Assembly: GCA_009777735.1 (NCBI GenBank)
Contig: WRLF01000006.1
Location: 1 to 64,000, forward strand
From: Treponema sp.
GTDB taxonomy: Bacteria > Spirochaetota > Spirochaetia > Treponematales > Breznakiellaceae
Direction of reading: 5' to 3'
Length of the DNA stretch: 64,000 nucleotides
The notes beneath the pieces are model-generated. The model saw only the letters and a program-made list of their open reading frames with translations, did no database searches and was not told where the DNA came from. The position numbers were made by a program, and so were the translations under genes. The first letter of the stretch is position 1, and each line of letters opens with the position of its first letter. This document shows positions 17,971-57,560 of the stretch, piece after piece.

Positions 17971-18340
17971 GGTGGAATTGTAGGCATACCGTTAGATACT
18001 GTCAACAGCACAGAAGTATACAATACCGGTAAGGGGGCAGGGCGGGGCGGCGAAAACAGGCCGGGGAACCTGATTGCGGAGCCACTGCCCGGTTTTGCTG
18101 TCTTTCAATAAAATGTTGTTTGTGTAAATCTCAGTGTTGTTCTCATGCTTAGGGATCCGGGCAGAAATGAATGCCCTCAAGTATGATTAGGCGGGTGTCG
18201 GTGGTAAGCGTGCCGCGTAAGCGGTGCGCTTGACCGCCGACGGGTCCCGCATAAGGCTTCAGTGCATTCATTTCTGTTTTAGATTAGTTCTGCACCTCGA
18301 TTACTTGTTACTTATTTCCCGATATGCTATTTTATCCTCA
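17971..18340. other. Divergent intergenic region containing a family C repeat
   Basis: These 370 bp between divergent genes contain no convincing ORF. Most of the region is the palindromic repeat at 18162-18276. No strong promoter pair is obvious to me. Confidence 0.5.
18162..18276 (+). repeat. Palindromic repeat, family C (copy 1)
   Basis: The outer arms are CAGAAATGAATGC (18162-18174) and GCATTCATTTCTG (18264-18276), a perfect 13-bp pair. Between them lies the family core: ATGATTAGGCGGGTGTCGG, a GC-rich stem with loop CCGCGTAAGCGG, then GCCGACGGGTCCCGCATAAG. The core matches the copies at 30517 and 36595, but the outer arms differ in sequence while staying complementary. Confidence 0.85.
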
Positions 18341-19330
18341 ATGGCCCGTAATCAAGCAGACTTTTTTGACAGACTCCAAAGCGTGACCGAAGCATTTTTG
18401 ACGCGAAGAAACCGCATTAAACGCATCAAAAAGGAAAAGCAAAAGGCAAAACACCCTGTGCGTGACTGGATAGAAGCGTTTGTATGGGCGGCAGGCATGG
18501 TGCTGCTTGCTAACCAGTACTTAATACAGGCTTATGTCATTCCATCCGGCTCAATGATAGATACCCTGCTTATAGGCGACAGGTTATTTGTTAATAAACT
18601 GGTATATGGGCCGGAACTACTGCCCGGAGTGGCTAAAATGCCCAGTGTGTTTAAACCAGAAAGGAACGATATTATTATATTTGAAAACCCGTCATACATT
18701 TCCCGCGGACCGGTGTTCGATATTGCCCAACGGATTATTTTTATGCTGACTATATCACTGATAGACATTGACAGGGATGAACATGGCCAGCCAAGGGCGC
18801 ACTTCCTTATCAAACGGGGAGTAGGGATGAGCGGAGATCGTTTTGTTATGGAAAACGGCGAAATGAAAATCCTTTTTGCCGGAAATGACCGGTGGACAGA
18901 CGAACGGGGCTATGCCGCACAACGCGGCTGGACACATACCATAACCCGTCTCATGGAGGAGGATCACTACCCGGATCTGGTAATGGCCGGAAAAGCCGCT
19001 GCCTGGCAGGATATGGGATTACCTGTGCCGGAATATCTCCGGGATGCAAACATGCTGGCCGCCTCCATGCGATATCCTGATTTTCTGGCTCACGAAAAAG
19101 CCAGACTTGAAACCCTGCGCAGCGCCATGCCTCATAACCGTCGTTATGCGACACGGCTGGCAAAACTTTCTCTGGGATGGTATGTGCCGGACGGCAGAAT
19201 ATTTCCTCTGGGAGATAACCGTGACAATTCCAGAGACGGACGTCACTTTGGGGCGGTTCGGCTTTCAAAAGTTTTGGGGAAAGGAACATTTATTTTCTGG
19301 CCCATGCAGCGAATTGGAACATTTCATTGA
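18341..19330 (+). CDS. lepB: Signal peptidase I (first of tandem pair)
   Basis: This type I signal peptidase is 329 aa from the ATG at 18341. The open frame extends upstream into the family C repeat and is not credible there. It has a membrane helix before the active site, the catalytic Ser motif IPSGSMIDTLLIGD (Ser about 71), the Lys-containing segment FLIKRGVGMSGDRF, and the box PLGDNRDNSRDGR. A stretch of about 100 residues between the Lys and GDNR boxes enlarges the protein relative to the common type. It should cleave Sec-exported preproteins at the periplasmic face. Confidence 0.92.
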   Translation: MARNQADFFDRLQSVTEAFLTRRNRIKRIKKEKQKAKHPVRDWIEAFVWAAGMVLLANQYLIQAYVIPSGSMIDTLLIGDRLFVNKLVYGPELLPGVAKMPSVFKPERNDIIIFENPSYISRGPVFDIAQRIIFMLTISLIDIDRDEHGQPRAHFLIKRGVGMSGDRFVMENGEMKILFAGNDRWTDERGYAAQRGWTHTITRLMEEDHYPDLVMAGKAAAWQDMGLPVPEYLRDANMLAASMRYPDFLAHEKARLETLRSAMPHNRRYATRLAKLSLGWYVPDGRIFPLGDNRDNSRDGRHFGAVRLSKVLGKGTFIFWPMQRIGTFH

Positions 19331-19352
19331 TACAGGAAACCAGAGGCAGTAT

Positions 19353-20084
19353 ATGATTGATAAATCACGAACAGCTTTATCATACGCATCACAAAAACGC
19401 GAAAAACACAGACTCCTGCGTGTAATCATCAGCCTGATCATCTTATTTGTGCTTTATAATATTGTTACCGCATTTTTCTTTTCAGTTTGGGTTTTACGCA
19501 ATGACACCATGCAGCCTGGTTTACGTCCCGGTGATAGGTTTTTGGTAGCTTCTACGGCGCTGCCCAACATGTTCGCCGGGCTGAGACCTTCTGACAGCAC
19601 TGTTCCCGCAAAACGGGGAAACCTTGTCATCATTGACACAAGGCAGGGAGAAAAAAAATCTCTGTTTTTATCCGCAATAGACATTGTTATCCGTTTTTTT
19701 ACCATTCAGCAGTTTAGTCTTTTTAATGCCGAGGAACACTTATTTATAAAACGCCTTGTTGCCCTTCCCGGTGACGAGATATACATGAATAATTATATTC
19801 TGCGAATACGGCCCGCAGGCAACTCCTTTCCTCTCACCGAATTTGAATTTGCCGACCGGCCCTATTACCCCAATATTCCCCAGGGACAGGCTCTTTGGGA
19901 TGAATCGCTCCCGCTTTCAGGAAACATGGAAAGGATAATTCTTGGACCGGGTGAGTTTTTTGTTATTTCCGATGACAGGGGAAGTACCGGTGATTCTCGT
20001 ACATGGGGGCCTATCGGCACGAAGGAGATAGTAGGGAGACCGATTTTACGAATCTGGCCCCCTGCGAGGATTGGCATCCCGTAA
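19353..20084 (+). CDS. Signal peptidase I-like protein with Thr in place of catalytic Ser
   Basis: This is a 243-aa protein starting at the ATG at 19353, 22 bp after the first signal peptidase gene. It has one N-terminal membrane helix, then RNDTMQPGLRPGDRF, where the residue before Met, normally the catalytic Ser, is Thr (codon ACC at 19506, residue 52). The Lys box FIKRLVALPGDEI and the SDDRGSTGDSR box are intact. The fold and general base are therefore kept while the nucleophile is changed. It may be a Thr-dependent peptidase, a partner of its neighbour or a non-cleaving homologue. Confidence 0.85.
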   Translation: MIDKSRTALSYASQKREKHRLLRVIISLIILFVLYNIVTAFFFSVWVLRNDTMQPGLRPGDRFLVASTALPNMFAGLRPSDSTVPAKRGNLVIIDTRQGEKKSLFLSAIDIVIRFFTIQQFSLFNAEEHLFIKRLVALPGDEIYMNNYILRIRPAGNSFPLTEFEFADRPYYPNIPQGQALWDESLPLSGNMERIILGPGEFFVISDDRGSTGDSRTWGPIGTKEIVGRPILRIWPPARIGIP

Positions 20085-20087
20085 TTT

Positions 20088-21335
20088 GTGACTGCCTCAT
20101 TGTACATACACATACCGTTTTGTACTCCCAATATCATGGGAGGGAAATGTGATTATTGTGATTTTTATTCTGTCCCTGTTAATGAAAAGAACGATTACGG
20201 CCTGATGGATTCATTTGTCAATACGGTAATAGAAGATGCAGCGGATCAACTGGTTTTTTTTGACATCAAGCATGTTCCTTCTGTCTATATTGGCGGGGGA
20301 ACACCTTCTGCGCTGGGAGTTACACTCATGGAACGCCTGTTAGCCGGATTGACCGCACTCATTAAACCATTGTATTCAGCATGTGTATCTTATCCCGAAT
20401 TTACCGTAGAAGCGAATCCTGAAACGGTTAACGAGGCATTTTTACAGGCATGCATCAAAGGCGGAGTTAACCGGATAAGTCTTGGAATTCAAACATTCCA
20501 TGAACCATCCCTTCACGCCGTACATCGGGGCAATGGACTGACTAACGAATGTATAACCCGTGGGTTAGCCCTTACCGCAGAGTATTTTCCAAACGCTTTT
20601 TCCGCCGACCTCATCACCGGTTTGCCTTTGCAGACAATGGATATTCTTGAGAATGACATTCATCGTTTGATGGCATTTAATCCGGCTCATGTCTCGCTGT
20701 ACAGCCTTATCCTTGAGCCGGAAACGCCATTGGGCAAAAAAGCTGCGGAACATGGTGCGGTACAGCTTTCCCTTCCCTGCAGCGACGATGCTGACAGCCT
20801 GTGGATAGCTGGCCGGGATATGTTAATAAACAACAGCCTTGCCCAGTACGAGGTTTCAAACTTTGCCCTGCCCGGTAAAACCTGCACCCACAATATCCGT
20901 TACTGGCGGATGGAAAACTGGATTGGAGCAGGCCCTGTCGCATCGGGAACCATCATTGACGAAACCGCCGGTACTCGTCACCCGGAGGTGGCAGCCCGGC
21001 GTTATACGTATCCTGCAGACATTGAAACCTGGCTTGCAGCCCCCAGGCCCCGCATCCGTTCCGCTAACACCGAAAAACTAAGCCGCGCCAATCTCATCCG
21101 CGAAAGCCTGCTAATGGGTTTCCGTTACCGCGAAGGTCCGGATATTCTCGGTTTTAAACATCGTTTTGGCTGCAGCATTGCAGATTGTATTCCCCATTCC
21201 ATTGCCCGCTGGAGCGAACGGGGTTTTTTCGAAACAGTCCGGCCGGATAGATTGGCCCCATCCTGGGACGGCCTGTTGTTCCTTAACGGTTTTCTCGCCG
21301 ATTCTTTTGCCGAACTGGACGGAAAAGATTTATAA
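20088..21335 (+). CDS. hemW: HemW-like radical SAM protein
   Basis: This 415-aa protein starts at a GTG 3 bp after the preceding stop. It carries IHIPFC, YIGGGTPSAL, EANPETVNEAF, GVNRISLGIQTF and ADLITGLPLQT, all typical of HemW (formerly annotated as oxygen-independent coproporphyrinogen oxidase; HemW is a heme chaperone). The iron-sulfur motif is unusual: the first Cys (12) is separated from CDYC by eight residues instead of three (CX8CX2C). Without other heme genes in view its partner is unknown. Confidence 0.85.
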   Translation: MTASLYIHIPFCTPNIMGGKCDYCDFYSVPVNEKNDYGLMDSFVNTVIEDAADQLVFFDIKHVPSVYIGGGTPSALGVTLMERLLAGLTALIKPLYSACVSYPEFTVEANPETVNEAFLQACIKGGVNRISLGIQTFHEPSLHAVHRGNGLTNECITRGLALTAEYFPNAFSADLITGLPLQTMDILENDIHRLMAFNPAHVSLYSLILEPETPLGKKAAEHGAVQLSLPCSDDADSLWIAGRDMLINNSLAQYEVSNFALPGKTCTHNIRYWRMENWIGAGPVASGTIIDETAGTRHPEVAARRYTYPADIETWLAAPRPRIRSANTEKLSRANLIRESLLMGFRYREGPDILGFKHRFGCSIADCIPHSIARWSERGFFETVRPDRLAPSWDGLLFLNGFLADSFAELDGKDL

Positions 21336-21370
21336 GCAAGCAAAACGGGTTTTCCCGCCATATACATGGT

Positions 21371-22141
21371 ATGAGATTACATCAATTTTCTCCCATGCCG
21401 GGAATGGCCCGGCAGTCAGCAACTTTTCTGCGGGAGTTTTTCTTTCCGTTTGGATGTTCTGTCTGCGGTATCAGTTTGGCAGATGAAAGTGAAATATGGT
21501 ACGGGTTATGTGAGAAATGCCGGGCAGAACTGGAACGAGAGTTGTCCGGGCATATTGCCGGAATAGCCTGTGATTATTGCGGCAAACCTCTCATTTCGGA
21601 ACAAGGCCGCTGCCTGTCATGCCGGCAAAGCGAAAACCGGGCTTTTGATAAGGTAATTGTTTTATTCCCCTATGTCGGGAAATACAGAAAACTGCTCTCC
21701 TCGTACAAATTCGGAAAAAATCTTGTCCTGGGTAATTTTTTTATTGAAAAAATATACGATAGGCTGTGTTTTGACAGTATTCAACCAGTAGACGATGCCC
21801 AAGCGGTCATTGTCCCGGTTCCTCCCCGTCCCGGCAAAATTCGAAAAAACGGCTGGGATCAGGTTGAGTATCTGGCAAAGCTGCTGGAAAGAATGCCAAA
21901 ACATGGGAATTCAATTAACCGCTGTCTTAAACGGCTGCCGTCAAAAAGTCAAAAAGAACTTGGGCGTGAAAACCGTCAGGTCAATTTGAAAGGACGCATT
22001 GTCACAGTACGCAATCCGCCCCAAACAGCCATATTGATTGATGATGTAATGACTACAGGTGCCACATTGGATGCGTGTGCTGCGGCATTGAAAGAAGCCG
22101 GAACTGAAAAAGTATACTGTCTGTGTTTGTTTTATGACTGA
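21371..22141 (+). CDS. ComF-family phosphoribosyltransferase-like protein
   Basis: This 256-aa protein has an N-terminal double zinc-finger region (CSVCG ... CEKC ... CDYCGKP ... CLSC) and a C-terminal PRTase fold with the PRPP loop ILIDDVMTTGATL near residues 217-229. The internal segment VIVPVPPRPGKIRKNGWDQVEYLAKLL is also family-typical. ComF proteins take part in DNA uptake in competent bacteria; elsewhere the role is unclear. The start could be as late as the Met at residue 9 or 12. Confidence 0.85.
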   Translation: MRLHQFSPMPGMARQSATFLREFFFPFGCSVCGISLADESEIWYGLCEKCRAELERELSGHIAGIACDYCGKPLISEQGRCLSCRQSENRAFDKVIVLFPYVGKYRKLLSSYKFGKNLVLGNFFIEKIYDRLCFDSIQPVDDAQAVIVPVPPRPGKIRKNGWDQVEYLAKLLERMPKHGNSINRCLKRLPSKSQKELGRENRQVNLKGRIVTVRNPPQTAILIDDVMTTGATLDACAAALKEAGTEKVYCLCLFYD

Positions 22142-22190
22142 CAGCTAACATGTAACCGGTTGATATGCTACCATACAGCAGGAGCATTAA

Positions 22191-23444
22191 TTGGCAGGGA
22201 ATTTGCGAGACCGATTACAACGGATTCAACTGGTAAAGCATAATAATACACCTGTCCAAAACCGTGAGCAGGTTGTTTTGGAAGGCTGGTCAAATGCGGG
22301 TTATATGACACTCCGGCGGGAAATTTCCGGTGATACATTTATTGCATTGCCAAAGGTTATACCGGAATCTGCCTTTATTGTAATACCCGGAATTAACAGC
22401 AGGACATTGTATGAAGATTTGCTTTTTTTTGACTTGGAAACCACCGGCCTTTCGGGAGGTGCGGGAACCATTGCGTTTCTGGCGGCATTCGGCAGGCTTA
22501 TTTTCATGGACAGTACAGAACAAACAACCAGATACAAACTTTGTATTACGCAGTACCTGCTGCTGGATTATCCGGGTGAAAGCGGCTTTATCAATGCGTT
22601 GTTAGAAGAATTTAGAGGCGGGAATTGTACGATAGTAAGTTATAACGGCAAATGTTTTGATTCACAGATTTTAAAAACGCGCTGCCTGATGAATGGTTTG
22701 ATCCCGCCTGAATACCGCCATGCAGACCTGCTGTTTCCGGCACGCAGGTTATGGAAACGGCTGCTTCCGGATTGTTCTCAGGCAACCATTGAAACAGCTG
22801 TTTTAAGCATTGACCGGACAGGAGACATTCCCGGTTCCATGGCGCCTGATATCTGGTTTTCGTTTCTTAAAAACGGTGATGCAGCGCCTCTTTTGGGAAT
22901 TTGTGAGCATAACCGCAGGGATATTTCCGGGCTTGCTTCAATATTTCAGATAATGACGAACATTGCGCATAACCCTGCTGCGGCATTGGATGCGGTGTAT
23001 TTTGACATTGAAACGCTTTCTCTACGCTGGCATGAAATTACCCGCAGGAAAAAACAGCATCTTCCGGATTCGGCACATGACACTGAAACAGATATGCGGC
23101 TTTGGGAAACAGGATGTAAGCTCCTGCGTCTGGCGGCTGAAAATGGTGTCCCGTTGGGGGGCCACCGGGCTGCGCTGCAGTATGCCTTTGTCTTACTCAA
23201 GACGGGGAAATACGACGAGGGCAGGGATCGGCTTTTCAGGCTGGTACACCACATATCGCCGCTTGTGCAAGTAGCTTCTCTGCGGGCTTTGGCAATTGAC
23301 AGCGAGCGCCGGTTAAGAAACGCCGCAGAAGCTCTTAAGTTGACAGTTCACGCTCTGGGATTACTGCCGCCGGATTCATCATTGCGTAATGAATTTGAAC
23401 ACAGGAAAGAAAGATTAATAAAGAAGCTGGAAAATAAGAAGTAG
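22191..23444 (+). CDS. RNase H-like (YprB-type) nuclease domain with TPR-like tail
   Basis: This is a 417-aa protein beginning at a TTG with GGAG 8 bp upstream. Residues about 75-245 form a DEDD exonuclease-like fold: LLFFDLETTGLSGGAGTIAFL (acidic DLE), an IVSYNGKCFDSQIL block, HADLLFPARRLWKRLLPDCSQATIE, and CEHNRRDISGLASIF with the final Asp. The C-terminal third looks like helical repeats. The family occurs in Firmicutes (YprB) and spirochaetes; the substrate is unknown. It is followed by a convergent gene. Confidence 0.78.
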   Translation: MAGNLRDRLQRIQLVKHNNTPVQNREQVVLEGWSNAGYMTLRREISGDTFIALPKVIPESAFIVIPGINSRTLYEDLLFFDLETTGLSGGAGTIAFLAAFGRLIFMDSTEQTTRYKLCITQYLLLDYPGESGFINALLEEFRGGNCTIVSYNGKCFDSQILKTRCLMNGLIPPEYRHADLLFPARRLWKRLLPDCSQATIETAVLSIDRTGDIPGSMAPDIWFSFLKNGDAAPLLGICEHNRRDISGLASIFQIMTNIAHNPAAALDAVYFDIETLSLRWHEITRRKKQHLPDSAHDTETDMRLWETGCKLLRLAAENGVPLGGHRAALQYAFVLLKTGKYDEGRDRLFRLVHHISPLVQVASLRALAIDSERRLRNAAEALKLTVHALGLLPPDSSLRNEFEHRKERLIKKLENKK

Positions 23445-23459
23445 TTGGCTCCTCGCCCC

Positions 23460-24227
23460 TCACTCTTCACCGTCGTTGAGGCCTTTTATCCGATCCATCT
23501 GCCCTCGGTAAAAAGCTTCCGTGCCGCCCCGCCGGTCAATTTCTTTTTGCATTTTTTGACGGACAACCTCGGAAAATTCCCTGATGGATTTAATGGTAAT
23601 TTCACCCTTGCTGTCCCGGCGGACATAGCGTGCAGGATATACCGGTTCCAGCACTACGAGTGTTTCAACAGGCAGGGAACGGCCCCAGAATGACCAGGGC
23701 TTGAAAAATCCGGCGGCAAAAACCGTTACCAGTGGGATTACCGGAATGTCCAGTTCTGCGGCGATTTTAAACGCGCCGGTATGAAAAGGTTTAATACGCT
23801 GATTATATAAAAAACACTCGCCTTCAGGGTAAAAATGCATGTAACGGCGGTACTTAAAAGCTTTATCACAGAGTTCAAGGATTTTCCGGTATCCGGCCCT
23901 GCCTCTGGGAATGGGTACGCCTCCCAATAGTCTGGTAAATGTTCCCAAATACGGGAATTCAACAGTTGCCTCCAGCAGAGTCTGAAATATCATGCGGGGC
24001 AGGACAAGTACGGCGATTTTTACCGGGTCAAGAAATGTAGTGTGGTTTGAAACCGTAATAGCCCGGCGAATGTTATGGATACGCCACCGGTGCTTATACA
24101 TCGTTGCATGCTGCATAAAGTTGAATAGCCAGGCAATGGGTATGATGAGTATTAAAAATGTACATGCGGAAGCTGTTCTGAACCAGAAAGAAAGGTCAAT
24201 GACCGGGCGTCCGTGTTTGTATGGCAT
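23460..24227 (-). CDS. plsC: 1-acylglycerol-phosphate acyltransferase family protein
   Basis: This 255-aa protein has an N-terminal membrane segment (ACTFLILIIPIAWLFNFM), the catalytic HX4D box in NHTTFLDP, the GGVPIPRGR block and YPEGE. It probably acylates a lysophospholipid or glycolipid at the membrane. I start it at the ATG at 24227, whose A is the last base of the upstream gene's stop (TAATG); the longer frame lies inside that gene. The pairing with a glycosyltransferase suggests a glycolipid pathway rather than general phospholipid synthesis; a second plsC-like gene is at 35432. Confidence 0.85.
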   Translation of the reverse strand: MPYKHGRPVIDLSFWFRTASACTFLILIIPIAWLFNFMQHATMYKHRWRIHNIRRAITVSNHTTFLDPVKIAVLVLPRMIFQTLLEATVEFPYLGTFTRLLGGVPIPRGRAGYRKILELCDKAFKYRRYMHFYPEGECFLYNQRIKPFHTGAFKIAAELDIPVIPLVTVFAAGFFKPWSFWGRSLPVETLVVLEPVYPARYVRRDSKGEITIKSIREFSEVVRQKMQKEIDRRGGTEAFYRGQMDRIKGLNDGEE

Positions 24228-25375: not shown

Positions 25376-25381
25376 ATTGAT

Positions 25382-30480: not shown

Positions 30481-30516
30481 ATAAACAGACCCTGATTGAC
30501 GGTACACTATATAAGG

Positions 30517-30635
30517 CAGCAATGCAGGCTAATCAAAATATGATTAGGCGGGTGTCAGTGACAAGCGTGCCGCGAAGCGGTGCGCTTGGTCGCTGACAGG
30601 CCCCGCATAAGTCTAATTCAGAACATGCATTGCTG
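30517..30635 (+). repeat. Palindromic repeat, family C (copy 2)
   Basis: The outer arms are CAGCAATGCA (30517-30526) and TGCATTGCTG (30626-30635), perfectly complementary over 10 bp. The core runs ATGATTAGGCGGGTGTCAG, a GC-rich stem with GCCGCGAAGCGG at the tip, then CTGACAGGCCCCGCATAAG. Stem changes (GTCAG with CTGAC here, GTCGG with CCGAC elsewhere) are compensated on both sides. It lies between convergent genes and could also aid termination. Confidence 0.85.
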
Positions 30636-30679
30636 TTTTTTCCAGACAGTAAAACACTAAATCAGGGGTTGTGAGGGTT

Positions 30680-36376: not shown

Positions 36377-36385
36377 CCTGACACC

Positions 36386-36673
36386 GACGGGCCCCGCACT
36401 CTTCCCTATCAGTAAAGCAACCCTCCATATGACGGCTCACCGACTAAAGGCAGCAATGCTTGCCTATTGTAATATGTTTAGGCGGGTGTCGGCGGCAAAC
36501 GTGCCGCGCAAGCGGTGCGGTTAGCCGCCGACGGGCCCCGCACTCTTCCCTATCAGTAAAGCAACCCTCCATATGACGGCTCACCGACTAAAGGCAGCAA
36601 TGCTTGCCTATTGAAATATGTTTAGGCGGGTGTCGGCGGTAAACGTGCCGCGCAAGCGGTGCGGTTAGCCGCC
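36386..36673 (+). repeat. Tandem duplication, 2 x 144 bp
   Basis: The unit beginning GACGGGCCCCGCACTCTTCC at 36386 recurs at 36530, exactly 144 bp on, and the two copies differ at only two positions that I can see. Each unit contains most of a family C repeat. The boundary lies within the conserved GACGGGCCCCGC sequence of the family C core, so unequal recombination between repeat copies is the likely cause. Confidence 0.85.
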
Positions 36674-36712
36674 GACGGGCCCCGCATAAGTTTTAGTGGG
36701 CAAGCATTGCTG
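36595..36712 (+). repeat. Palindromic repeat, family C (copy 4, complete)
   Basis: The outer arms are CAGCAATGCTTGCC (36595-36608) and GGCAAGCATTGCTG (36699-36712), 14 bp perfect. The core stem is GTCGGCGG/CCGCCGAC with the tip CCGCGCAAGCGG, and an outer pair GCGGG/CCCGC. A truncated copy (copy 3) with the same left arm begins at 36451 within the first tandem unit and has no right arm of its own. Confidence 0.88.
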
Positions 36713-36756
36713 GGTTAACCAGTTATGTAGCGAACAATGGGGGGTGTGGGCGACTT

Positions 36757-38825: not shown

Positions 38826-38936
38826 TGATGATAATGGTATGGTTACCATTGTCTTTTTTCATTCCCAAATCCAAACTTACCTGAATATTTCGCATTATAA
38901 CTGAATTTATTTCAAAACAAGGTGTTTTTTGCCCAG

Positions 38937-38966
38937 ATCGTGTAAATCGCCCTTGAAATCGTGTAG
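38937..38966 (+). promoter_or_regulatory. LytTR-type direct-repeat binding site (site 1)
   Basis: ATCGTGTAA (38937-38945) and ATCGTGTAG (38958-38966) are 9-bp direct repeats separated by exactly 12 bp, the usual layout of LytTR regulator sites. A near-identical block occurs at 44888-44917, and the match extends about 16 bp upstream (GTGTTTTTTGC). It lies 78 bp before the LytTR regulator gene. Confidence 0.7.
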
Positions 38967-39043
38967 TTAGATAATGCAGAGTCATATATTTGTACATTTT
39001 TACTGTAAAATGAAGAAAACTATTGTAATAGTACAGGGAAAAT

Positions 39044-44793: not shown

Positions 44794-44887
44794 CCCTCCT
44801 TTTTATTTCATAAAAACTACTATCCTTTATATGGATATGTGATATATAACACCGCTTATCTTAAAAAGATAGTGTTTTTTTGCTTAG

Positions 44888-44917
44888 ATCGTGTAGATCG
44901 CCCCTGAAATCGTGTAG
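44888..44917 (+). promoter_or_regulatory. LytTR-type direct-repeat binding site (site 2)
   Basis: ATCGTGTAG (44888-44896) and ATCGTGTAG (44909-44917) are perfect 9-bp direct repeats separated by 12 bp, matching the site upstream of the LytTR regulator gene. It lies between the divergent lipoprotein gene (start 44793) and tldD (start 45019). Confidence 0.7.
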
Positions 44918-44985
44918 ATAGCCAATATGGGGGTGGACTTTTCCAAAAGGCATGAGTTTATGTCTTCTCCAATCTGCCTTTTTCA

Positions 44986-47715: not shown

Positions 47716-50244
47716 ATGTTTGTTGATCCTGTTAAAGACCTTGGCCCGCTGCTGCTGAACATGGATAAACCCGCGCGTTATACCGGCGGCGAGTACGGCA
47801 GGCTGGCGAATGCGGATGCGCTTCTGCAAACTGTAATCGCTTTTCCCGATCTGTATGAAATCGGGATGTCCAATCAGGCATTCCGTATAATTTACAATGG
47901 TCTTAACAAAATTCCCGGCATTTCCTGTGACCGGGCCTTTGCTCCCGCGCCTGATTTTGAACAATTGCTTCGTGAAAAAAAACTGCCGCTGTACGGCCTG
48001 GATACCGGCATCAGCCTGAAAAGCCTTGATGTCCTGCTGTTTACCCTGGGTTATGAGCTGGGGATAACCGGTATACTCACCATGCTTGATGTTTCCGGCA
48101 TTCCCCTTCGATGTGACCGGCGCGGCGCGAATGATCCGCTGGTAATAGCCGGAGGGCCGGCAGTTTCCAACCCTTTGCCGTACAGCGCCTTTATTGATGC
48201 ATTCTGGATGGGCGAGGCGGAGGCCGGGTTTTTTGACCTTGCGGCGGAATTGTTGGAGATTAAACGGGGATCGGGGATCGGGGATCGGGGATCAGGGAGC
48301 ATGTCTTACAGAGCTGCGATGTTGGATCATTTGAGCAAACATCCCAATGTCTGGGTGAAGGGAAAGGAAAAAGTTTTCCGTGCCGTCTATCCGGGATTTT
48401 CGCAAAGTGAAGAAATGCCCGCTGTATATCCCATTGCAAGCATGAAAACCGTCCAGCACCACGGCGTACTGGAAATCATGCGGGGTTGCGGCAATGGGTG
48501 CCGTTTTTGTCATGCCGGTTACTGGTACCGCCCCATGCGGCAAAAGGACCGGGAAATCCTTGTCCGTGAAGCAGATGCGCTTGTTAACCTGGGCGGCTAC
48601 CGCGAAATAAGCCTCTCATCGCTTTCTACCGGTGATTATTCCGGTATCGGCTGCCTTGTTGATACCCTGGATTCCCGTTTCCGCAGCAGACATGTCTCGT
48701 TTCAATTACCTTCGCTTAAAGTTTCTACCTTCTCGCTTTCCCTGCTGGAAAAAGTTTCAAGTGTACGCAAAAGCGGCCTGACATTTGCTGTTGAAACCCC
48801 TCTGGATTTTTGGCAGATGGCGATTAACAAACAGGTCACTGAAGATTCTGTCGTTAGTATTCTTCGTGAAGCAAAAAAGAACGGATGGCGGGGAGCAAAA
48901 TTTTATTTTATGATTGGCCTGCCGGTTCAAGTAACAATAAACAATGAACAAATAATAAAAAGTGAAGAAACTGAGATTGTGAATTTTATCAGTAATGTTG
49001 GCAAAAAATCAGCAATGCACTTCAATGTCAATGTGGGGATATTCGTGCCAAAACCCCATACACCGTATCAATGGGCAAAACAGATTGACAGTGAAAGCGC
49101 TGCTGCCAAACTAAACTATATCCGATCAAAGCTTAAACCGCTGGGACATAAAGTAAGTGTTTCCGATCCTCTGATTTCCGTGCTTGAAGGCATTTTAAGC
49201 CGTGGAAATGAGCGATCCGGCGATCTGGTTGAAGAAGCTTTTCTTGCCGGTACCAGACTTGATCCTTGGCAGGAATATATCGCCAAAGATGTATGGTTTG
49301 AAATACTGAAAAACAATGATGAACTTGTCAATAACTATCTTTCTGCCAAAGACCCGGCTTCTCCGCTGCCCTGGCAGCCTGTTGTTTCGGGCGTTTCAGA
49401 TACTTACCTGCGAAAAGAACTGGAAAAATCCAATCGTGGCGAAATGACCTCCCCCTGTGCTGCAGATTGCCCGCACCCCTGCGGTTCTTGTAATGAAAAT
49501 GAAAAGTACTACTCGCAAATATTTCACACAGAGGCACGGAGGCGCGGAGAGCACGGAGAAGAAAACGGACAGCGAGGAGATGAGTGGGTTGCAGATCTTC
49601 AACCTTCCCTCCGTGCCTCCGTGTCTCCGTGTGATAAAAATTCGAATGAAGCCTCCAAAAGCGATCCTGCCACTTGGAAACTCCTGTTCAGTTTTACCAA
49701 GGAAGGAAGTGCTGTTTTTCACGGGCATTTAAGCCTCATTGAGATTTTTTCCATGGCAATGAACCGTGCCGGTTTGGATGTGCGGTACACTCAGGGTTTT
49801 AACCCCCTGGCAAAACTGGAAATTGTTTCACCGCTTTCTGTAGGCATTGCTGCCGGGGCGGAAATTGCCGCCGTTGAATTTTCTCATGCCGTTTCGCCTG
49901 ACGAATTTCTTAAAAAAATGAACGGTGCTCTGCCGGAAGGTTTTACCATAAACAGGGCGGAATGTTATCGTATTCCTGCCGGCGGAAAAAAACATTCGCT
50001 TTCTTCATTACTGTGGGGCTTTGGTTACAGCGGTCAGGGAGGAGAAACAGACTATGTTCCGGCTGCCGGAGAAAAAGCTTACCGCGAAAAATGCTTCTGC
50101 CCTGACGACGGCACCAGGGGCAGGGTTTTTTCATTGCGGCGCGCCTGTGTTCTGGCAAAAAATATAGCTGCTCTTTCTGATGTTCATGAATGGGCTTGTT
50201 ATTTTGATGTATATCGATATTTATATCCCGCAGAAGATTCATAA
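47716..50244 (+). CDS. Two-domain radical SAM protein (TIGR03960/TIGR03936-like fusion)
   Basis: This 842-aa protein has an N-terminal domain (ENLDKPARYTGGEYG-like opening; FPDLYEIGMSNQAFRIIYNGLN), then a radical SAM core with MRGCGNGCRFCHAGYWYRP (CX3CX2C), and a C-terminal DUF2344-like domain (LLFSFTKEGSAVFHGHLSLIEIFSMAMNRAGLDVRYTQGFNPLAKLEIVSPLSVGIA). The family usually has the two parts as neighbours or fusions; its substrate is unknown. Two repeats are inserted in frame: family B at residues about 184-194, and family A at about 603-640 in the linker between the domains. Confidence 0.85.
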   Translation: MFVDPVKDLGPLLLNMDKPARYTGGEYGRLANADALLQTVIAFPDLYEIGMSNQAFRIIYNGLNKIPGISCDRAFAPAPDFEQLLREKKLPLYGLDTGISLKSLDVLLFTLGYELGITGILTMLDVSGIPLRCDRRGANDPLVIAGGPAVSNPLPYSAFIDAFWMGEAEAGFFDLAAELLEIKRGSGIGDRGSGSMSYRAAMLDHLSKHPNVWVKGKEKVFRAVYPGFSQSEEMPAVYPIASMKTVQHHGVLEIMRGCGNGCRFCHAGYWYRPMRQKDREILVREADALVNLGGYREISLSSLSTGDYSGIGCLVDTLDSRFRSRHVSFQLPSLKVSTFSLSLLEKVSSVRKSGLTFAVETPLDFWQMAINKQVTEDSVVSILREAKKNGWRGAKFYFMIGLPVQVTINNEQIIKSEETEIVNFISNVGKKSAMHFNVNVGIFVPKPHTPYQWAKQIDSESAAAKLNYIRSKLKPLGHKVSVSDPLISVLEGILSRGNERSGDLVEEAFLAGTRLDPWQEYIAKDVWFEILKNNDELVNNYLSAKDPASPLPWQPVVSGVSDTYLRKELEKSNRGEMTSPCAADCPHPCGSCNENEKYYSQIFHTEARRRGEHGEENGQRGDEWVADLQPSLRASVSPCDKNSNEASKSDPATWKLLFSFTKEGSAVFHGHLSLIEIFSMAMNRAGLDVRYTQGFNPLAKLEIVSPLSVGIAAGAEIAAVEFSHAVSPDEFLKKMNGALPEGFTINRAECYRIPAGGKKHSLSSLLWGFGYSGQGGETDYVPAAGEKAYREKCFCPDDGTRGRVFSLRRACVLAKNIAALSDVHEWACYFDVYRYLYPAEDS
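48265..48298 (+). repeat. Family B repeat inserted in frame within the radical SAM gene
   Basis: Four tandem GGGGATCG-type units occupy 48265-48298 and encode RGSGIGDRGSGS in the protein. The units match the C-rich arm of the mfd insertion in reverse complement. Confidence 0.7.
49524..49634 (+). repeat. Family A palindrome inserted in frame within the radical SAM gene
   Basis: The left arm begins TCACACAGAGGCACGGAGG at 49524, and the right arm ends CTCCGTGCCTCCGTGTCTCC GTGTGA at 49634. The element is 111 bp, a multiple of three, without stops in the gene's frame. It encodes HTEARRRGEHGEE followed by SLRASVSPCD in the linker between the radical SAM and DUF2344-like domains. Confidence 0.85.
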
Positions 50245-51957: not shown

Positions 51958-51960
51958 CTG

Positions 51961-53319
51961 TTGTTTGAAAACATCATTGCACAGCCGGCAACAGATCAAA
52001 TGCAGGCTGATTTTCTTTCGAACAAACTCGCTCCTTCGCTGTTGTTGTTTGGGCCGCAGGCATCGGGGAAAGGCAGTTCGGCAATAGAGCTTGCGCGAGC
52101 TCTGACCTGTGAAAAAACTGTCCCTGTCAATGCAGTTGACAACGGTGCAGCCGCCCGGAACAGCAATGCGGCTCCCTGGGGCTGCGACTGTTCTTCCTGC
52201 ACCCGGAATCGATCGTTAACTCATCCTGCTTTGGCCATGATCGGTCCACGCAGTTTTGCCGCAGAAATTGCCGCTACCCGTGCTGCCTTTTTGCGTGATC
52301 CTTCATCTATACCGGGGCGTTTATTATTTGTCCGTTCATTGCAAAAATTGCTTGCACGTTTTTCCCCGTCAGTTTGGGAATACGAATCAAGGTCGGGAAA
52401 AATCAATCCATTACCGTTAATACAATCGCTGGAAGAAGAAATTGATGAGATTGAATCACCCGCTGCCGCCGAAAAACACACTGTAATTGAAAAGCTGGCA
52501 GCTTCTCTTGTTAATAATGCTTTTAAACTGGAGGATGAATGGATAAGTGAAGGGATTCCCATTGCGCAGGTGCGGAAAGCTTCTTCCTGGAGCCATTTAT
52601 CACCGGCAGGAAAACGAAAAATTCTCATTATTGAAAATGCCGACCGGATGCAGGAACCGGCTGCCAATACATTGCTGAAATTGCTTGAAGAGCCGCCCGG
52701 ATCAATAACCATAATCCTCACTGCGCAGAGGCGGGAGTCGTTGCTGCCTACGATTCAATCGCGGCTGCGGCCTTACCGGTTCGTTACCCGCAGCATTGAT
52801 AAGGAACGGGAAATCATCCGGAGGGTTTTCAGAGACTCATCTCATTTGGCCGAGTCGGTTTCTGCTTACCTCGATTCATTTCTGCCGCAGCCGTCTGAAA
52901 AACTCATCAATCTTTCGGCGTTTTTTATCGCCGCAGTTGCCCGCGCTGTTAATAGCCAGTCTGCTCTGAGTGATAAATCCCTGTCTCCGGCAATTAAGGC
53001 TCTGGACAGTTATTGCACCCTAATTGCCGATGCCGCAGGTTTTGGCCGCGTGACAGAGGCAAAAGAAGTACTTGCTGTATTGCTTTCATCCAGCGGCAAT
53101 TTTGAAGGGCGGTCTTTTCCCCGCTTTCTTGCCCTTTTGCTTGACCTTGTGTCCCGATCGTTTGCGGAGTGCAGACAAAGTCCCGTTTTCGTTACATGCC
53201 GTGAAATCTGGAATAAGCGGATTGGAGAAACGCAGGCCGCTTTTAGCGTCTGGAACCAGAAGCCGGATCTTGCCCTGGAATCGTTGTTTTACCGCCTTAA
53301 GGAAGATATGGTCTCATGA
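51961..53319 (+). CDS. DNA polymerase III delta'-like clamp-loader ATPase
   Basis: This 452-aa protein starts at TTG (51961). It has LLLFGPQASGKGSSAIELARAL (Walker A-like, GPxASGKG), a Cys-rich stretch CDCSSCTRN near residue 75, and LIIENADRMQEPAANTLLKLLEEPPGSITIILTAQRRESLLPTIQSRLRPYRF, typical of clamp-loader delta'/HolB subunits. The length exceeds HolB of E. coli (334 aa), because of an insertion between the Cys cluster and the Walker B-like region. It overlaps the histidine kinase gene by 4 bp. Confidence 0.82.
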   Translation: MFENIIAQPATDQMQADFLSNKLAPSLLLFGPQASGKGSSAIELARALTCEKTVPVNAVDNGAAARNSNAAPWGCDCSSCTRNRSLTHPALAMIGPRSFAAEIAATRAAFLRDPSSIPGRLLFVRSLQKLLARFSPSVWEYESRSGKINPLPLIQSLEEEIDEIESPAAAEKHTVIEKLAASLVNNAFKLEDEWISEGIPIAQVRKASSWSHLSPAGKRKILIIENADRMQEPAANTLLKLLEEPPGSITIILTAQRRESLLPTIQSRLRPYRFVTRSIDKEREIIRRVFRDSSHLAESVSAYLDSFLPQPSEKLINLSAFFIAAVARAVNSQSALSDKSLSPAIKALDSYCTLIADAAGFGRVTEAKEVLAVLLSSSGNFEGRSFPRFLALLLDLVSRSFAECRQSPVFVTCREIWNKRIGETQAAFSVWNQKPDLALESLFYRLKEDMVS

Positions 53320-54488
53320 ACAGTTTTTACCTGCGTGCTCTTAGTAAAAAGGACAAGCTCACCGCAGAACAATACCGTGAACTTCTTGTTTCCGCTTCTG
53401 CCGAAATTGCCAGGCTGGAGACTGTACTTGATTCGCTGCCCTCCGGCATTCTCGTCTGCGATGAAAAACATTCGCTGATAAAAGCAAATCAATCTGCATT
53501 ACGCTTACTGTCGCTCAGCCATAAGGAAGGCATATTATTGTGGGAAATTATTTCTGATGATGATCTGGCTGGTTTCTTTAAGAAATCGCTGCAAAGCGGT
53601 GATCAGGTATTAGAACATGAAATGTATGTGAGATCACAGCGCATCTCCGATGCGGGGGCGAACCGCCTGCTTTCGATCAGTGTTCACCCGCTTGTGGAGA
53701 AGCGCCATATTACCGGTTCTCTTGTCCGCATTGAAGACATCACCGAAAAACGGGGGCGGGAAGCCCGTCTGCGCCGCGCCGAAAATCTTGCCAGTCTGAC
53801 CACTCTCGCCGCCGGTGTTGCCCATGAAATAAAAAACCCGTTAGGCGCAATTTCAATCCATCTGCAGCTTCTGCAAAAAGCAATCGGAATCAAAGACGGA
53901 AATAATCACAAGTATTTTACCGTATTGCATGAAGAAGTTGATCGTTTGAACCGCATTGTTGTTGATTTTCTGTTTGCTGTGCGTCCCATGACTTTGGAAC
54001 TGCGTGAAGGGAATCTCAATTCCCTTATTACCGAACTTGCCGATTTTTTCCGTGCCGAACTGGAACAATCAGACATTCGTCTTTGGGTTGAACTTGATGA
54101 AAAACTGCCGCCTGTACTTATTGACGAGCGTTATATGAAACAGGCGCTCCTCAACCTTATAAAAAATGCCCAGGCGGCAATGCCCAACGGTGGCCTTTTA
54201 ACCATTGCCACGATTGCATTGGACAGCGAAATCCGGATAAGTGTGTGTGATACCGGTATTGGGATAATGCCGGAAAATCTAAAAAAAATATTCGAGCCGT
54301 ATTATACTACGAAAGACAACGGTACCGGCCTTGGGCTGACCCTCGTGTATAAAATTATCCGGGAACATCAGGGCGATGTTTCTGTGGATTCGCGGGAAGG
54401 GGAGGGTACGGATTTTGAGATCAGCCTGCCTGTCTATCAGAAAGAACAGCGGTTAATTGGATGCAAAAACGGAGAATATGCAAAATGA
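53316..54488 (+). CDS. NtrB-type PAS histidine kinase
   Basis: This is a 390-aa soluble kinase with no membrane segment. A PAS domain covers about residues 30-140 (LDSLPSGILVCDEKHSLIKANQSALRLL). The HisKA box is LAAGVAHEIKNPLGAIS with His at about 170, and the HATPase has NLIKNAQAAM, DTGIGI and GTGLGLTLVYKII. It is transcribed with the NtrC-type regulator that follows (overlap ATGA), so the two form a pair. The signal is unknown. Confidence 0.92.
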   Translation: MNSFYLRALSKKDKLTAEQYRELLVSASAEIARLETVLDSLPSGILVCDEKHSLIKANQSALRLLSLSHKEGILLWEIISDDDLAGFFKKSLQSGDQVLEHEMYVRSQRISDAGANRLLSISVHPLVEKRHITGSLVRIEDITEKRGREARLRRAENLASLTTLAAGVAHEIKNPLGAISIHLQLLQKAIGIKDGNNHKYFTVLHEEVDRLNRIVVDFLFAVRPMTLELREGNLNSLITELADFFRAELEQSDIRLWVELDEKLPPVLIDERYMKQALLNLIKNAQAAMPNGGLLTIATIALDSEIRISVCDTGIGIMPENLKKIFEPYYTTKDNGTGLGLTLVYKIIREHQGDVSVDSREGEGTDFEISLPVYQKEQRLIGCKNGEYAK

Positions 54489-55846
54489 AATTCAAACTCC
54501 TTATTGCCGATGATGAAAAAAATATCCGGGAAGGACTTGCCGCTTCGCTGGAAATGGACGGATACAAAACAGTTTGTGTTGCCGATGGGGAAGAAGCGTG
54601 GAAACATTTTTGCAAAGGCGACATTGACCTGGTCATTACCGACCTGCGTATGCCTGGTATGGACGGCGGTGAATTGATGCGGCGCATACTGGCGGAAAAC
54701 CCCGGCTTTCCGGTGGTCGTTCTCACCGGGCATGGGACGGTAGAAAATGCGGTCAACGCCATGCGCGAGGGGGCATGGGATTTTCTTACCAAGCCCGTTA
54801 ACCTTGACCGCTTGTCCCTTCTTGTAAAGCGCGCTCTCGATAACCGGGAACTGATTATGCGTCACCGTGAAATGGAAGCGGAACTGGAACGCAGCCGGCT
54901 GTCCAACACCATGATCGGCAAGTCGCCTGGTATGCGAAAAGTTCTTGACATGATTGGCCAGGCCGCTCCCACGAGAGCTTCCATTTTAATTACCGGGGAA
55001 TCCGGCGTTGGGAAGGAGCTGGTAGCCGACGCTATTCACGAACTTTCACCCCGCAAGGGCAAGCCCCTCGTAAAAGTAAACTGTTCTGCTCTTTCATCAA
55101 ATCTTTTGGAAAGCGAGTTGTTTGGCCACGAAAAAGGGGCTTTTACCGGAGCGGTATCGCGGCGGCGCGGGCGATTTGAACTGGCCAACGGGGGAACCCT
55201 GTTTCTTGACGAAATTGGCGAAATAGAACAGAGCATTCAGATAAAACTGCTGCGGGTGCTGCAGGAACGGGAATTTGAACGGGTTGGCGGCGAAGAAACC
55301 GTTGAAACAGATGTCCGCCTTGTTGCCGCTACCAATAAAGATCTCAAGGCTGAAATTGAAAAAGGCAATTTCCGCGAGGATCTGTACTTCCGCCTTAATG
55401 TGGTGAGTATTGCCGTTCCGCCTCTGCGTGAACGAAAAGAAGATATTCCTGTTATGGCAGCAAGTTTTCTCAAGGAATTCTCTGCCGAAAACGGTAAGGC
55501 TATTGACGGCATCCACGAAAAAGTGTATTCACGGTTATCGTCTTACGACTGGCCCGGTAATATCCGCGAACTGCGCAACTGCATTGAAAGCGCCGTGGTC
55601 ATGTGCCGAAAGAATCTCATCACCACGGAAGATCTGCCCCCCTTCCTGCAATCCGCCGGTGACGATGACTGGGTGCGCGTTCCTCTCACCATCAGCCTTG
55701 AGGAATCGGAAAAGCTCATCATCCGCGCCGCCATCAATCATTACAAAGGCAATAAAAGCAAAGCTGCTGAAGTTTTAGGTATTGGGCGCAAAACACTGCA
55801 CAGGAAATTATCGGACGGCGGTGGGCAGGAAATTGTTACGATATAG
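54485..55846 (+). CDS. NtrC-type sigma-54-dependent response regulator
   Basis: The protein is 453 aa from the ATG at 54485. The receiver has phospho-acceptor Asp53 (VITDLRMPGMDG). The AAA+ domain has GESGVGKELVA (Walker A), GAFTGA (the sigma-54 contact loop) and GGTLFLDEIGE (Walker B). A Fis-type HTH ends the protein (NKSKAAEVLGIGRKTLHRKL). It should activate sigma-54 promoters when phosphorylated by the upstream kinase. Its target is not shown by the window. Confidence 0.95.
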   Translation: MKFKLLIADDEKNIREGLAASLEMDGYKTVCVADGEEAWKHFCKGDIDLVITDLRMPGMDGGELMRRILAENPGFPVVVLTGHGTVENAVNAMREGAWDFLTKPVNLDRLSLLVKRALDNRELIMRHREMEAELERSRLSNTMIGKSPGMRKVLDMIGQAAPTRASILITGESGVGKELVADAIHELSPRKGKPLVKVNCSALSSNLLESELFGHEKGAFTGAVSRRRGRFELANGGTLFLDEIGEIEQSIQIKLLRVLQEREFERVGGEETVETDVRLVAATNKDLKAEIEKGNFREDLYFRLNVVSIAVPPLRERKEDIPVMAASFLKEFSAENGKAIDGIHEKVYSRLSSYDWPGNIRELRNCIESAVVMCRKNLITTEDLPPFLQSAGDDDWVRVPLTISLEESEKLIIRAAINHYKGNKSKAAEVLGIGRKTLHRKLSDGGGQEIVTI

Positions 55847-55872
55847 GATCAAACAGTGTTTATATATATATA

Positions 55873-55901
55873 TTGACGGTGGTTATAAGCAAAAGTAAAA
55901 T
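55873..55901 (+). promoter_or_regulatory. Sigma-70 promoter of the SUMF1-domain gene
   Basis: TTGACG (55873-55878) and TAAAAT (55896-55901) are separated by 17 bp, immediately after a run of TATATA, and 20 bp before the ATG at 55922. Confidence 0.65.
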
Positions 55902-55921
55902 AAAGCGAGAGGTATAACAAA

Positions 55922-56770
55922 ATGAAAAAATGGTATGGTGTTTTTCTTATTGCAGCTTTTTTCCTGTGTGCGGCGGCTCCTGAACAATCTTCTGTCCAAG
56001 CTTCGGCAGCCGGGGATTCCATTGCAGAACATTCAGCTGATCAAATTCCGGTCATTATCAGCTCTACTCCGGCAGGATTTGTGCGGATAGAAGGCGGTAC
56101 ATTTACCATAGGCAGCCCTCCGGGAGTGGGGCCTAGCAATGAACAACAGCGGGAAGTAATATTAAGCCCCTTTTACATGGGAATTTACGAAGTAACCCAG
56201 TCTGAATATGAGGAAATAATGGGGACAAATCCCAGTCAATTCAGAGGGCCGAATTTACCGGTAGAACGGGTTACCTGGTTTCAGGCGGTTGAGTATTGCA
56301 ACAGCCGAAGCGAAAGAGAAGGGCTTACCCCAGTTTATATTATGTCTGAGCAAACCATTACTTTTAATCAGGAAGCGAACGGATACCGGCTGCCAACCGA
56401 AGCAGAATGGGAAATTGCCTGCCGCGCAGGAACAACGACAAGATTTTTTACCGGGGACTCTATCTCTGCTGCTCAGGCCAATTTTAATAGCGCAGGCACA
56501 CTCCCTGTCGGGAGTTTTGCCCCCAACGCTTTTGGGCTGTATGATATGCACGGCAATGTCGGAGAATGGTGTTGGGACTGGAACAGGTCAGATATTCTCA
56601 GCGGAGGCACAAACCCCACAGGCCCGGATTCCGGAGCTCTGCGTGTTTTCCGGGGAGGAGGCTGGAGACATGATAATGCTAATTTTCTGCGTTCTGCATT
56701 CCGGAGCGGACAATTTCCTACTCAACCGGGTAATTTCCTGGGGTTCCGTCTTGTATTAAATGCAGAATAA
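55922..56770 (+). CDS. Exported SUMF1/FGE-type protein
   Basis: This 282-aa protein has signal peptide KWYGVFLIAAFFLCAAA and then one SUMF1 (formylglycine-generating-enzyme) domain: FVRIEGGTFTIGSPP, PFYMGIYEVTQSEYEEIMG, YRLPTEAEWEIACRAGT, YDMHGNVGEWCWDW and FRGGGWRHDNANFLRSAFRSG. The two Cys of true FGE are not both evident, so catalysis is doubtful. Bacterial relatives often act as C-type-lectin-like binders; in some treponemes the same fold is diversified by retroelements, but no reverse transcriptase is present here. Confidence 0.8.
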   Translation: MKKWYGVFLIAAFFLCAAAPEQSSVQASAAGDSIAEHSADQIPVIISSTPAGFVRIEGGTFTIGSPPGVGPSNEQQREVILSPFYMGIYEVTQSEYEEIMGTNPSQFRGPNLPVERVTWFQAVEYCNSRSEREGLTPVYIMSEQTITFNQEANGYRLPTEAEWEIACRAGTTTRFFTGDSISAAQANFNSAGTLPVGSFAPNAFGLYDMHGNVGEWCWDWNRSDILSGGTNPTGPDSGALRVFRGGGWRHDNANFLRSAFRSGQFPTQPGNFLGFRLVLNAE

Positions 56771-56774
56771 TTCT

Positions 56775-57191
56775 TCAATCGCCAATGATTTTAACTAATA
56801 CCCGTTTACGGCGCTGTCCGTCAAATTCACCGTAAAAAATCTGTTCCCATGGGCCCAGGTGGAGCTTGCCGTTCGTAACCGCAACCACCGCTTCCCGGCC
56901 CATGATCTGCCGTTTTAAATGGGCATCAGCGTTGATTTCACCGGTGTTATGACGGTAATAAGAGACCGGCTCATGGGGGGCAAGTTTTTCCAGCCATACA
57001 TCAAAGTCGTGGTGCAGCCCGGATTCGTCATCATTGATGAAAACACTGGCGGTGATATGCATTGCGTTTACCAGGCACAACCCTTCCTTGATGCCGGAAT
57101 TTCCCAGCAGGGCATTTACTTCCCCGGTAATATTGATAAATTCCCGGTTTTTTGCAGTGTTAAACCAGAGTTCTTTCGTTATTGACTTCAT
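56775..57191 (-). CDS. yjbQ: YjbQ family protein (UPF0047)
   Basis: This 138-aa protein has the family pattern [91 protein letters not shown]. YjbQ proteins bind a divalent metal and have been linked to thiamine-phosphate-synthase-like activity; the physiological role is unclear. It is preceded by a small membrane gene on the same strand. Confidence 0.88.
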
Positions 57192-57198
57192 TTATTTT

Positions 57199-57444
57199 TC
57201 ATTCCTCATCAAGGCCAAGATCGTTGTCAGGGTCTACATTTTCCCCTTTTTTTGAGCTGGCTTTTTCAGGTTTTGGAGCTTTTACTTTCTTGGGCCTGGA
57301 TTTAGAAACCGATCGCGGGCGGCGATAGGTACGGCCAACGTAATTAACCAGGAAAATATACATTATTATGGCTATTGTGACAGCAATCACCTGCCATGAT
57401 GTTATTACATAAAGAAATAATTCCTTTACAGTCCCCGAGAACAT
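57199..57444 (-). CDS. Small membrane protein with basic C-terminal tail
   Basis: This is 81 aa from the ATG at 57444. The longer frame reaches into the truncated family C repeat. There is one membrane segment (VITSWQVIAVTIAIIMYIFLV) and a basic then acidic tail (RRPRSVSKSRPKKVKAPKPEKASSKK ... DPDNDLGLDEE). It lies 7 bp upstream of yjbQ. No family is recognised. Confidence 0.5.
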   Translation of the reverse strand: MFSGTVKELFLYVITSWQVIAVTIAIIMYIFLVNYVGRTYRRPRSVSKSRPKKVKAPKPEKASSKKGENVDPDNDLGLDEE

Positions 57445-57487
57445 ACCATTTTCATCATCGGCATATTTTCGCAAAACTAAAATAAAA

Positions 57488-57560
57488 CAGAAATACATGC
57501 TGTAAAGACTTGTGCGGGGCCCGTCGGCGACCAATCATGTTTAAAGAGCATGTATTTCTG
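57488..57560 (-). repeat. Palindromic repeat, family C (copy 5, internally deleted)
   Basis: The outer arms are CAGAAATACATGC (57488-57500) and GCATGTATTTCTG (57548-57560), 13 bp perfect. The core is in the minus orientation and shortened: GTGCGGGGCCCGTCGGCGACC then AATCATG, with the inner hairpin lost. Although the interior is decayed, the arms remain fully complementary. Confidence 0.8.

Follow-up and report, generated by a model that had tools for sequence, protein, structure and literature searches.

A structured repeat of one spirochete family keeps its fold while its sequence changes

A stretch of 64,000 nucleotides (nt) from a Treponema sp. genome (GenBank assembly GCA_009777735.1, contig WRLF01000006.1, positions 1 to 64,000; hereafter "the window") carries copies of a hairpin-forming repeat, in which a conserved core hairpin is enclosed by two complementary arms. 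The original prediction, made from the letters of the window, was that the folded form of this repeat is preserved by compensated change. We find that the structured repeat is real, that its range covers 13 or more genera of a single family, probably the Breznakiellaceae, and that its fold is kept while its letters change. This holds across the source genome and across the family: arm complementarity was not at the level of chance, nor was the covariation fully explained by two copies sharing their ancestry. We read the repeat as non-autonomous, intergenic and mobile, a reading in which movement is the inferred component and to which we assign a probability of about 0.5.

Arm pairing across copies and genera

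The total set comprised 147 copies from 11 genera: 31 from the source genome (G000; 2.69 Mb in 39 contigs, 83% complete), 87 from its relatives, and 29 from other genera. The relatives' matches were fetched in part (22 copies vs. 43 both-strand rows for genome G029), and of the 177 rows we retained the better of the two strands, with each place and each set of identical sequences represented once. Of 33 arm pairs in the source genome, 25 entered a MAFFT alignment; the eight left out were nested, tandem, deleted, or oddly looped. In these 25 copies, 97.6% of 949 cells were paired, compared to 89.3% in column shuffles, and 19 of 38 pairs had changed on both sides; none of 500 shuffles reached any of the five measures used. 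Indeed, the core-stem pair that had been proposed to covary (GTCGG/CCGAC vs. GTCAG/CTGAC) does so: pair 45-95 is GC in 15 copies, AU in seven, and UA in three.

The arms themselves were compared in the 31 copies from the source genome, which had been chosen for arms that differ by no more than one mismatch in 10 nt; the count therefore does not include copies in which an arm has been lost. Over 12 nt, 21 had no mismatch, nine had one, and one had two. Perfect complementarity, which had been claimed for every copy, therefore describes the four copies on which the claim was made and not the genome at large. The mean mismatch was nevertheless 0.35 within a copy vs. 2.29 between copies (0 of 10,000 permutations), and the respective values in the 87 copies from relatives were 0.45 and 3.33 (0 of 5,000 permutations within genome). 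Because the former copies were selected for their arms and the latter were retrieved with a model that rewards pairing, these figures describe two-armed copies rather than all relics.

Across genera, we aligned one copy per genome (n = 31), representing 18 of the 20 matching genomes of the source genus and 13 of 16 other genomes; G016 (at a contig end), G002 (with an unlike interior), G156, G245, and G351 were left out. In 10 of the 13 representatives from outside the genus (10 genera), the arms do not resemble those of the genus, while those of G350, G315, and G243 are similar. Examples are CAGGCGCGCA in G301, AACAGGCGCACA in G330, GAAAGGACACC in G317, GAAAAGCGTAC in G140, GGAAGCGCACA in G347, CGGGAAAAAACAGGG in G323, CGGCACAGAAG in G261, and CGGGCACGCA in G287; in each, the other arm is complementary. 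A self-score of at least 9 was obtained for the arms of 12 of the 13 representatives (the exception, G254, scored 8) vs. 4 of 156 cross-pairs.

How did the arms change together? On trees built from other columns, arm pairs in the source genome underwent 34 double vs. 18 single changes, and those in relatives 106 double changes from one Watson-Crick (WC) pair to another vs. 45 single ones; 10 further double changes ended in non-WC pairs. For core pairs, the corresponding counts were 23 double vs. 32 single changes in the source genome, 26 of the latter being moves between WC and G-U pairs, and 123 WC-to-WC double vs. 139 single changes in relatives. Some arm changes were both complex and matched, e.g., CAGAAAGATGCC/GGCATCTTTCTG and, among the matches listed, those at loci L124, L125, and L131 of G029 and L142 and L146 of G007. 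Template switching between hairpin arms is a described mechanism (PMC8794818), and simultaneous double changes and complex matched changes are what it would produce. Thus, the compensated change of the arms, which had been attributed to selection on the folded form or to its need in movement, need not reflect selection alone, as most of the changes on the trees are simultaneous.

The conserved core and its strand

The core has a strongly conserved signature in the 31 aligned genomes: GGGTGNC followed by GG-AA on the left and CC followed by GNCAGG(A/C)CCC on the right. Its commonest form is 5'-GGGG-UGUC ... GACA-GGA-CCCC-3'. A small conserved bulge lies on the right (3') side; in the two folds that we inspected, it has three unpaired nucleotides in a copy from the source genome and two in G031.

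Wobble pairs were distributed asymmetrically in the core. In the source genome, core cells contained 84 G-T/T-G vs. 1 A-C/C-A combinations, compared to 11 vs. 5 in the arms. In relatives (86 copies; L106 fell outside the 150 aligned), the core counts were 170 G-T vs. 4 A-C with one unpaired column left out, and 48 vs. 3 after removal of the two wobble pairs that are mostly fixed; for the 14 arm pairs, they were 20 GU vs. 21 AC. A core that tolerates G-T and hardly ever A-C implies that the fold of one strand is kept. Since a mutational strand bias should affect the arms equally, these data argue for selection on the fold of the + strand of the core, be it RNA or single-stranded DNA. We conclude that selection maintains the fold of the core, whereas that of the arms is probably maintained by correction and selection together.

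Copy number and range

A query with one copy returned 52 matches in the source genome. With 25 full copies of this genome we built a covariance model, and its search on both strands with E up to 0.01 returned 76 rows; a manual count reduced these to 45 distinct places, of which the window contains six. The true copy number is probably above 45, because several contigs end at or within the element (C3:7, C9:16, C11:1, C17:4, C12:91423-91492 of 91503, and C19:40538-40627).

Among the matches listed, 20 of the 39 genomes of the genus matched the model at E 0.001, and the rows per congener (both strands) ranged from none in 19 of 39, through 43 in G029, to a maximum of 67 in G000. Family-wide, the model matched 22 of 145 genomes, representing 13 of 56 sampled genera. 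The arm CAGAAATGTATGC was found in 25 of the 39 genus genomes (among the matches listed) and in none of the control, which fits the suggestion of terminal inverted repeats. An exact arm pattern (7 of 22 genomes of the genus, 0 of 269 other genomes) had indicated a range restricted to the genus. The structure-model search overturned this restriction; the exact pattern matched the genus only because most other genera have other arms. In a pattern search of the genome collection, eight of 20 stretches were bins of Treponema sp.; the one inspected among the other 12 (L068) was not the element. Viral carriage was considered and rejected: the core pattern matched four contigs, all of one unrelated and apparently coding sequence, and the arm pattern matched none. 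Judging from bin names, from a Termite-flg RNA in the window, and from the literature (PMC13067680), the hosts are Breznakiellaceae that probably inhabit the termite gut.

Outer stem and nested copies

A full copy measures approximately 170-215 nt. From the outside inward, it consists of the outer stem, where present (many copies have one), the arms, an internal loop, and the core hairpin, which bears the 3'-side bulge. The predicted size of 115-119 bp is correct for the inner element, while many copies are larger owing to the stem beyond the arms. In 10 of 13 genomes from outside the genus, the mean outer-stem score was 10.8-19, vs. 5.0-6.3 for flanks taken from other genomes; G287 provides an example (CCCCAGCCCCCTGCAACCG / CGGTTGCAGGGGGCTGGGG). 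The stem is weak or lacking in G315, G317, and G243. It scores more weakly in G000 as well (7.1 vs. 6.0), where a score of at least 7 occurs in 18 of 31 copies and also in 533 of 2000 random pairs; here, the outer layer rests on a shared flank identified by reading, the best case being GCAATCCCTCATT / AATGAGGGCTTGC. The flanks in G007, G008, and G012 have no consensus outer layer. One 221-nt copy of the source genome folds with -96.7 kcal/mol (z of -5.7 vs. shuffles).

Copies also lie within one another. At six places in the source genome, a second copy begins within the hairpin of the first; contig ends truncate two of these places, and at C10:72216-72406, C15:14330-14542, and C25:22464-22667 the inner copy has half of the outer one on either side. 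Directly before the left end of 13 copies in this genome with a pattern-recognized left end, we found a right-core piece in six cases and a copy cut at its hairpin tip in two. In relatives, identical 13-nt arms surround quite different hairpins of 73, 176, 195, 226-233, 269-272, and 412 bp; G025 has arms of one type enclosing arms of another; and the core hairpin can hold a second structured insert, approximately 108 nt long (L226-L229), on the left side in G012 and G033 and on the right side in G031. Arm palindromes with no core occur at nine places in seven of 39 genomes and not in the control, including, among the matches listed, three genomes without a core match (G059, G021, and G005). 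At C10:59664-59709, considered as an empty site, the outer layer is present and the inner hairpin is missing between CAGC repeats, a configuration equally readable as a deletion. Two further observations concern the arms: the 412-bp hairpin of G025 (L235, 827-1238; -205 kcal/mol) has the CAGAAATGTATGC arm repeated inside it, and in G019 (L238) the 13-nt arm element is repeated at a distance of approximately 3.9 kb, its left flanks being identical, around open reading frames (ORFs) that resemble Rhs repeats.

Genomic context and mobility

The repeat had been predicted to lie only between genes. According to a simple gene caller, none of 29 copies examined in the source genome lies within a gene, although one extends 11 nt into its left gene and an ORF at 18224-19330 overlaps the first window copy. 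Over 128 copies, orientation relative to the neighbors was without preference (left genes 35+/29-, p 0.53; right genes 57+/41-, p 0.13; the rest uncalled). This result argues against a riboswitch, a terminator, a fixed 3' untranslated region (UTR) element, or another cis-acting host role; we rejected the cis-regulatory and terminator roles on this basis, even though the source genome alone leans toward the sense of the left gene.

Other candidates were likewise set aside. A target duplication at the core was suggested by TAAAAT on both sides of the commonest form, but a copy's own loops and permuted loops proved alike. Reverse transcription, with template jumping to explain tandems that have intact left ends, conflicts with the absence of reverse transcriptase (RT) genes where copies are many: PF00078 is absent from G000, G029, G025, G007, G001, G060, G008, G031, and G011, with several genomes incomplete. 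An autonomous element between distant arm copies found no support in the one 3.7-kb arm pair whose ORFs we read, none of them a transposase; another arm pair has Rhs-repeat-like ORFs. No matching transposase was found, with genomes not screened for all transposases. In Rfam, 15 loci gave no match at E 0.05, the window copies none at gathering score, and the best match within one copy had an E of 0.19.

A number of observations weigh against a mobile repeat with a selected fold. Movement was not seen: the single orthologous locus tried, a TatD neighborhood, was not syntenic and yielded no clean empty site. With the true ends of the element uncertain, direct repeats outside the arms were about as frequent in a copy's own flanks as in permuted flanks in four sets (30, 21, 29, and 29 copies), and those at the core flanks averaged 3.89 vs. 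3.97 when permuted (85 copies). Neither enzyme that we surveyed was associated with the element among the matches listed: Y1_Tnp occurred in nine of 20 genomes with it and eight of 19 without, and RT (PF00078) in four of 20 and seven of 19, respectively. The copies from relatives and other genera were found by a pairing-aware model. The trees describe fast and possibly recombining repeats, and double changes are numerous in the core too, so that arms and core differ in degree only. The wobble asymmetry stems partly from pairs fixed by ancestry, and it is less clear across genera (GU 43 vs. AC 19, a looser count with pairs taken from the fold of one sequence). Finally, 17 of 22 left genes in the source genome are co-oriented with the element, as a role in the 3'-UTR would give.

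Competing explanations

If the repeat is mobile, as we favor, it would spread as a unit. Its + strand, folded as a single strand (an RNA transcript or single-stranded DNA), might be recognized through the bulged core by a factor acting in trans. Two forces would then preserve arm complementarity: the need for the fold and a template-switch (quasi-palindrome) correction that copies arm onto arm. Two of the natures originally proposed, a structured RNA and a non-autonomous mobile element, agree with the data and could be the same entity. The notion of terminal inverted repeats is half borne out by the arm shared within the genus; against it, no target duplication was evident, a stem continues beyond the arms, and 10 of the 13 representatives of other genera carry quite different arm sequences.

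The foremost rival is a structured RNA that serves the host in mRNA stability, processing, or regulation (comparable to BIMEs), spread long ago, and is now kept for its RNA fold. Conservation of the core motif across genera and one-sided wobble are as expected of a functional RNA, and the co-oriented left genes of the source genome would suit it. It is harder to reconcile with the lack of an orientation preference over 128 copies from many genomes, with matches so unevenly spread among congeners, with nested and truncated copies, and with the absence of an Rfam match in the stretches searched. We consider this explanation somewhat unlikely.

More speculative is a specific form of mobility, in which an element of the whole family is recognized as a folded single strand and inserts hairpin into hairpin, so that core hairpins, arm palindromes, and other structured inserts come to stack within each other and new arms are acquired as pairs. 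This scheme is doubtful, and we offer it tentatively; if true, structure would guide the mobility of the repeat, for which no enzyme is known.

Alternatively, the copies could be DNA palindromes, selfish or inert, in which mutation alone keeps the arms complementary through template switching (PMC8794818), with the fold unselected. The preponderance of simultaneous changes on both arms, the frequency of double changes in the core, the symmetric arm wobble of relatives, and complex matched changes such as CAGAAAGATGCC/GGCATCTTTCTG are all in keeping with such palindromes. Three features are left unexplained: the one-sided wobble of the core, its conserved bulge, which correction should erase, and the recurrence of the same layout in other genera, where the arm sequences are new. 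We regard such palindromes as quite improbable. The proposed recombination site recognized by structure, akin to integron attC, shares with the element arms that vary yet stay paired, an internal asymmetry that is conserved, and a preference for one strand, but RYYYAAC plus GTTRRRY at the arms was found in 0 of 147 copies and the copies are dispersed, making this origin highly improbable.

With 147 copies from 11 genera, selection on a fold and template-switch correction of arms can be compared within one element: wobble is strongly one-sided in the core and little or not at all so in the arms, which have more matched double changes. The repeat, in which hairpins of several kinds are nested, is also a candidate for an unnamed RNA family in an apparent termite-gut lineage.

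Relation to known repeats

Bacterial stem-loop repeats include REP/BIME, with GTAG and CGTC families (PMC3733652), and the SLS families (PMC2267715). The repeat described here resembles them in being multi-copy, mostly intergenic, and stem-forming, with alternative complementary residues and G-T pairs in the stems. Some REPs sit inside larger palindromes, a precedent for nesting (PMC3733652). The present element differs from REP/BIME in its much greater length (115-215 nt, up to three stems), its own bulged core motif, the nesting of several element types, and the lack of a Y1 association. An unpaired GTAG or CGTC tag at the end of a 20-40 bp stem was not seen on reading the two alignments (25 copies of the source genome; 31 genomes), and the TGTC of the core is paired.

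Miniature inverted-repeat transposable elements (MITEs) are similarly short, gene-free, and numerous, with inverted-repeat ends. In the present repeat, by contrast, target duplication was not found and the ends are replaced between genera yet remain paired; arms conserved within the genus would pass for MITE-type ends, but in many copies an outer stem extends beyond them. Repetitive and double hairpin elements of sponge mitochondrial DNA, for which substitutions were reported in loops (PMC2800124), are also dispersed, mostly intergenic hairpin units that can be combined. The element here is bacterial, its bulged core is conserved across genera, and its stems change in a compensated fashion.

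In integron attC sites, structure is kept while sequence is free, and the fold is strand-specific, a likeness to the present repeat. The latter has no R or L boxes and, as far as seen, does not lie in cassette arrays. Taken together, the element is closest in kind to the bacterial stem-loop repeats, and we found no name for it: among the open-licence titles listed for such repeats in Treponema or Breznakiellaceae and for nested palindromic elements, none described it.

Copies within the window

The four copies first reported in the window proved real, with coordinates and arms as given, and two further places were identified (36451-36543 and 58378-58525). The arm pairs of the four are perfectly complementary over 13, 10, 14, and 14 bp. 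Three are complete inner elements on the + strand. The first (18162..18276) has arms CAGAAATGAATGC / GCATTCATTTCTG, and no outer stem was recognized around it. The second (30517..30635; arms CAGCAATGCA / TGCATTGCTG) is surrounded by an outer stem, assigned by reading, with its left side CCCTGATT at 30490..30497 (+) and the partner AATCAGGG at 30660..30667 (+). The third (36595..36712; arms CAGCAATGCTTGCC / GGCAAGCATTGCTG) likewise has an outer stem by reading, with ACCCTCCAT at 36564..36572 (+) and ATGGGGGGT at 36737..36745 (+), which includes one G-T pair. Upstream, at 36451..36543 (+), lies a 3'-truncated tandem copy, directly followed by the left end of the next. Positions 36384-36671 consist of two tandem 144-bp units that are 99% identical and include a partial element copy; they represent a recent duplication.

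The copy at 57488..57560, on the minus strand, indeed lacks its inner hairpin, as originally noted: the arms (CAGAAATACATGC) are kept, the left half of the core is gone, and GATT marks the junction. We read this loss as a deletion between GATT repeats. The sixth place (58378..58525, minus strand) has a complete core (58378-58475) and a left arm reaching out to 58525, with a foreign small hairpin interrupting the arm region. The same hairpin (CAACCGAGCCAC..GTGGCGAAGG) breaks the arm region of two copies, one at C30:7238 of G000 and the other at 58460-58525 of the window.

Other features of the window are a Termite-flg RNA (RF01729, 75.8 bits) at 8430-8537 (+), which overlaps the start of an ORF at 8451, and two other kinds of repeat. 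A short repeat of the TCACACGGAGGCACGAAG type has three copies (3371-3399, 49513-49541, and 58278-58306; 76-100% alike to the reference copy), and a 51-nt repeat of the ATCGTGTAGATCGCCC type, 86% alike, occurs at 38925-38975 and 44876-44926.

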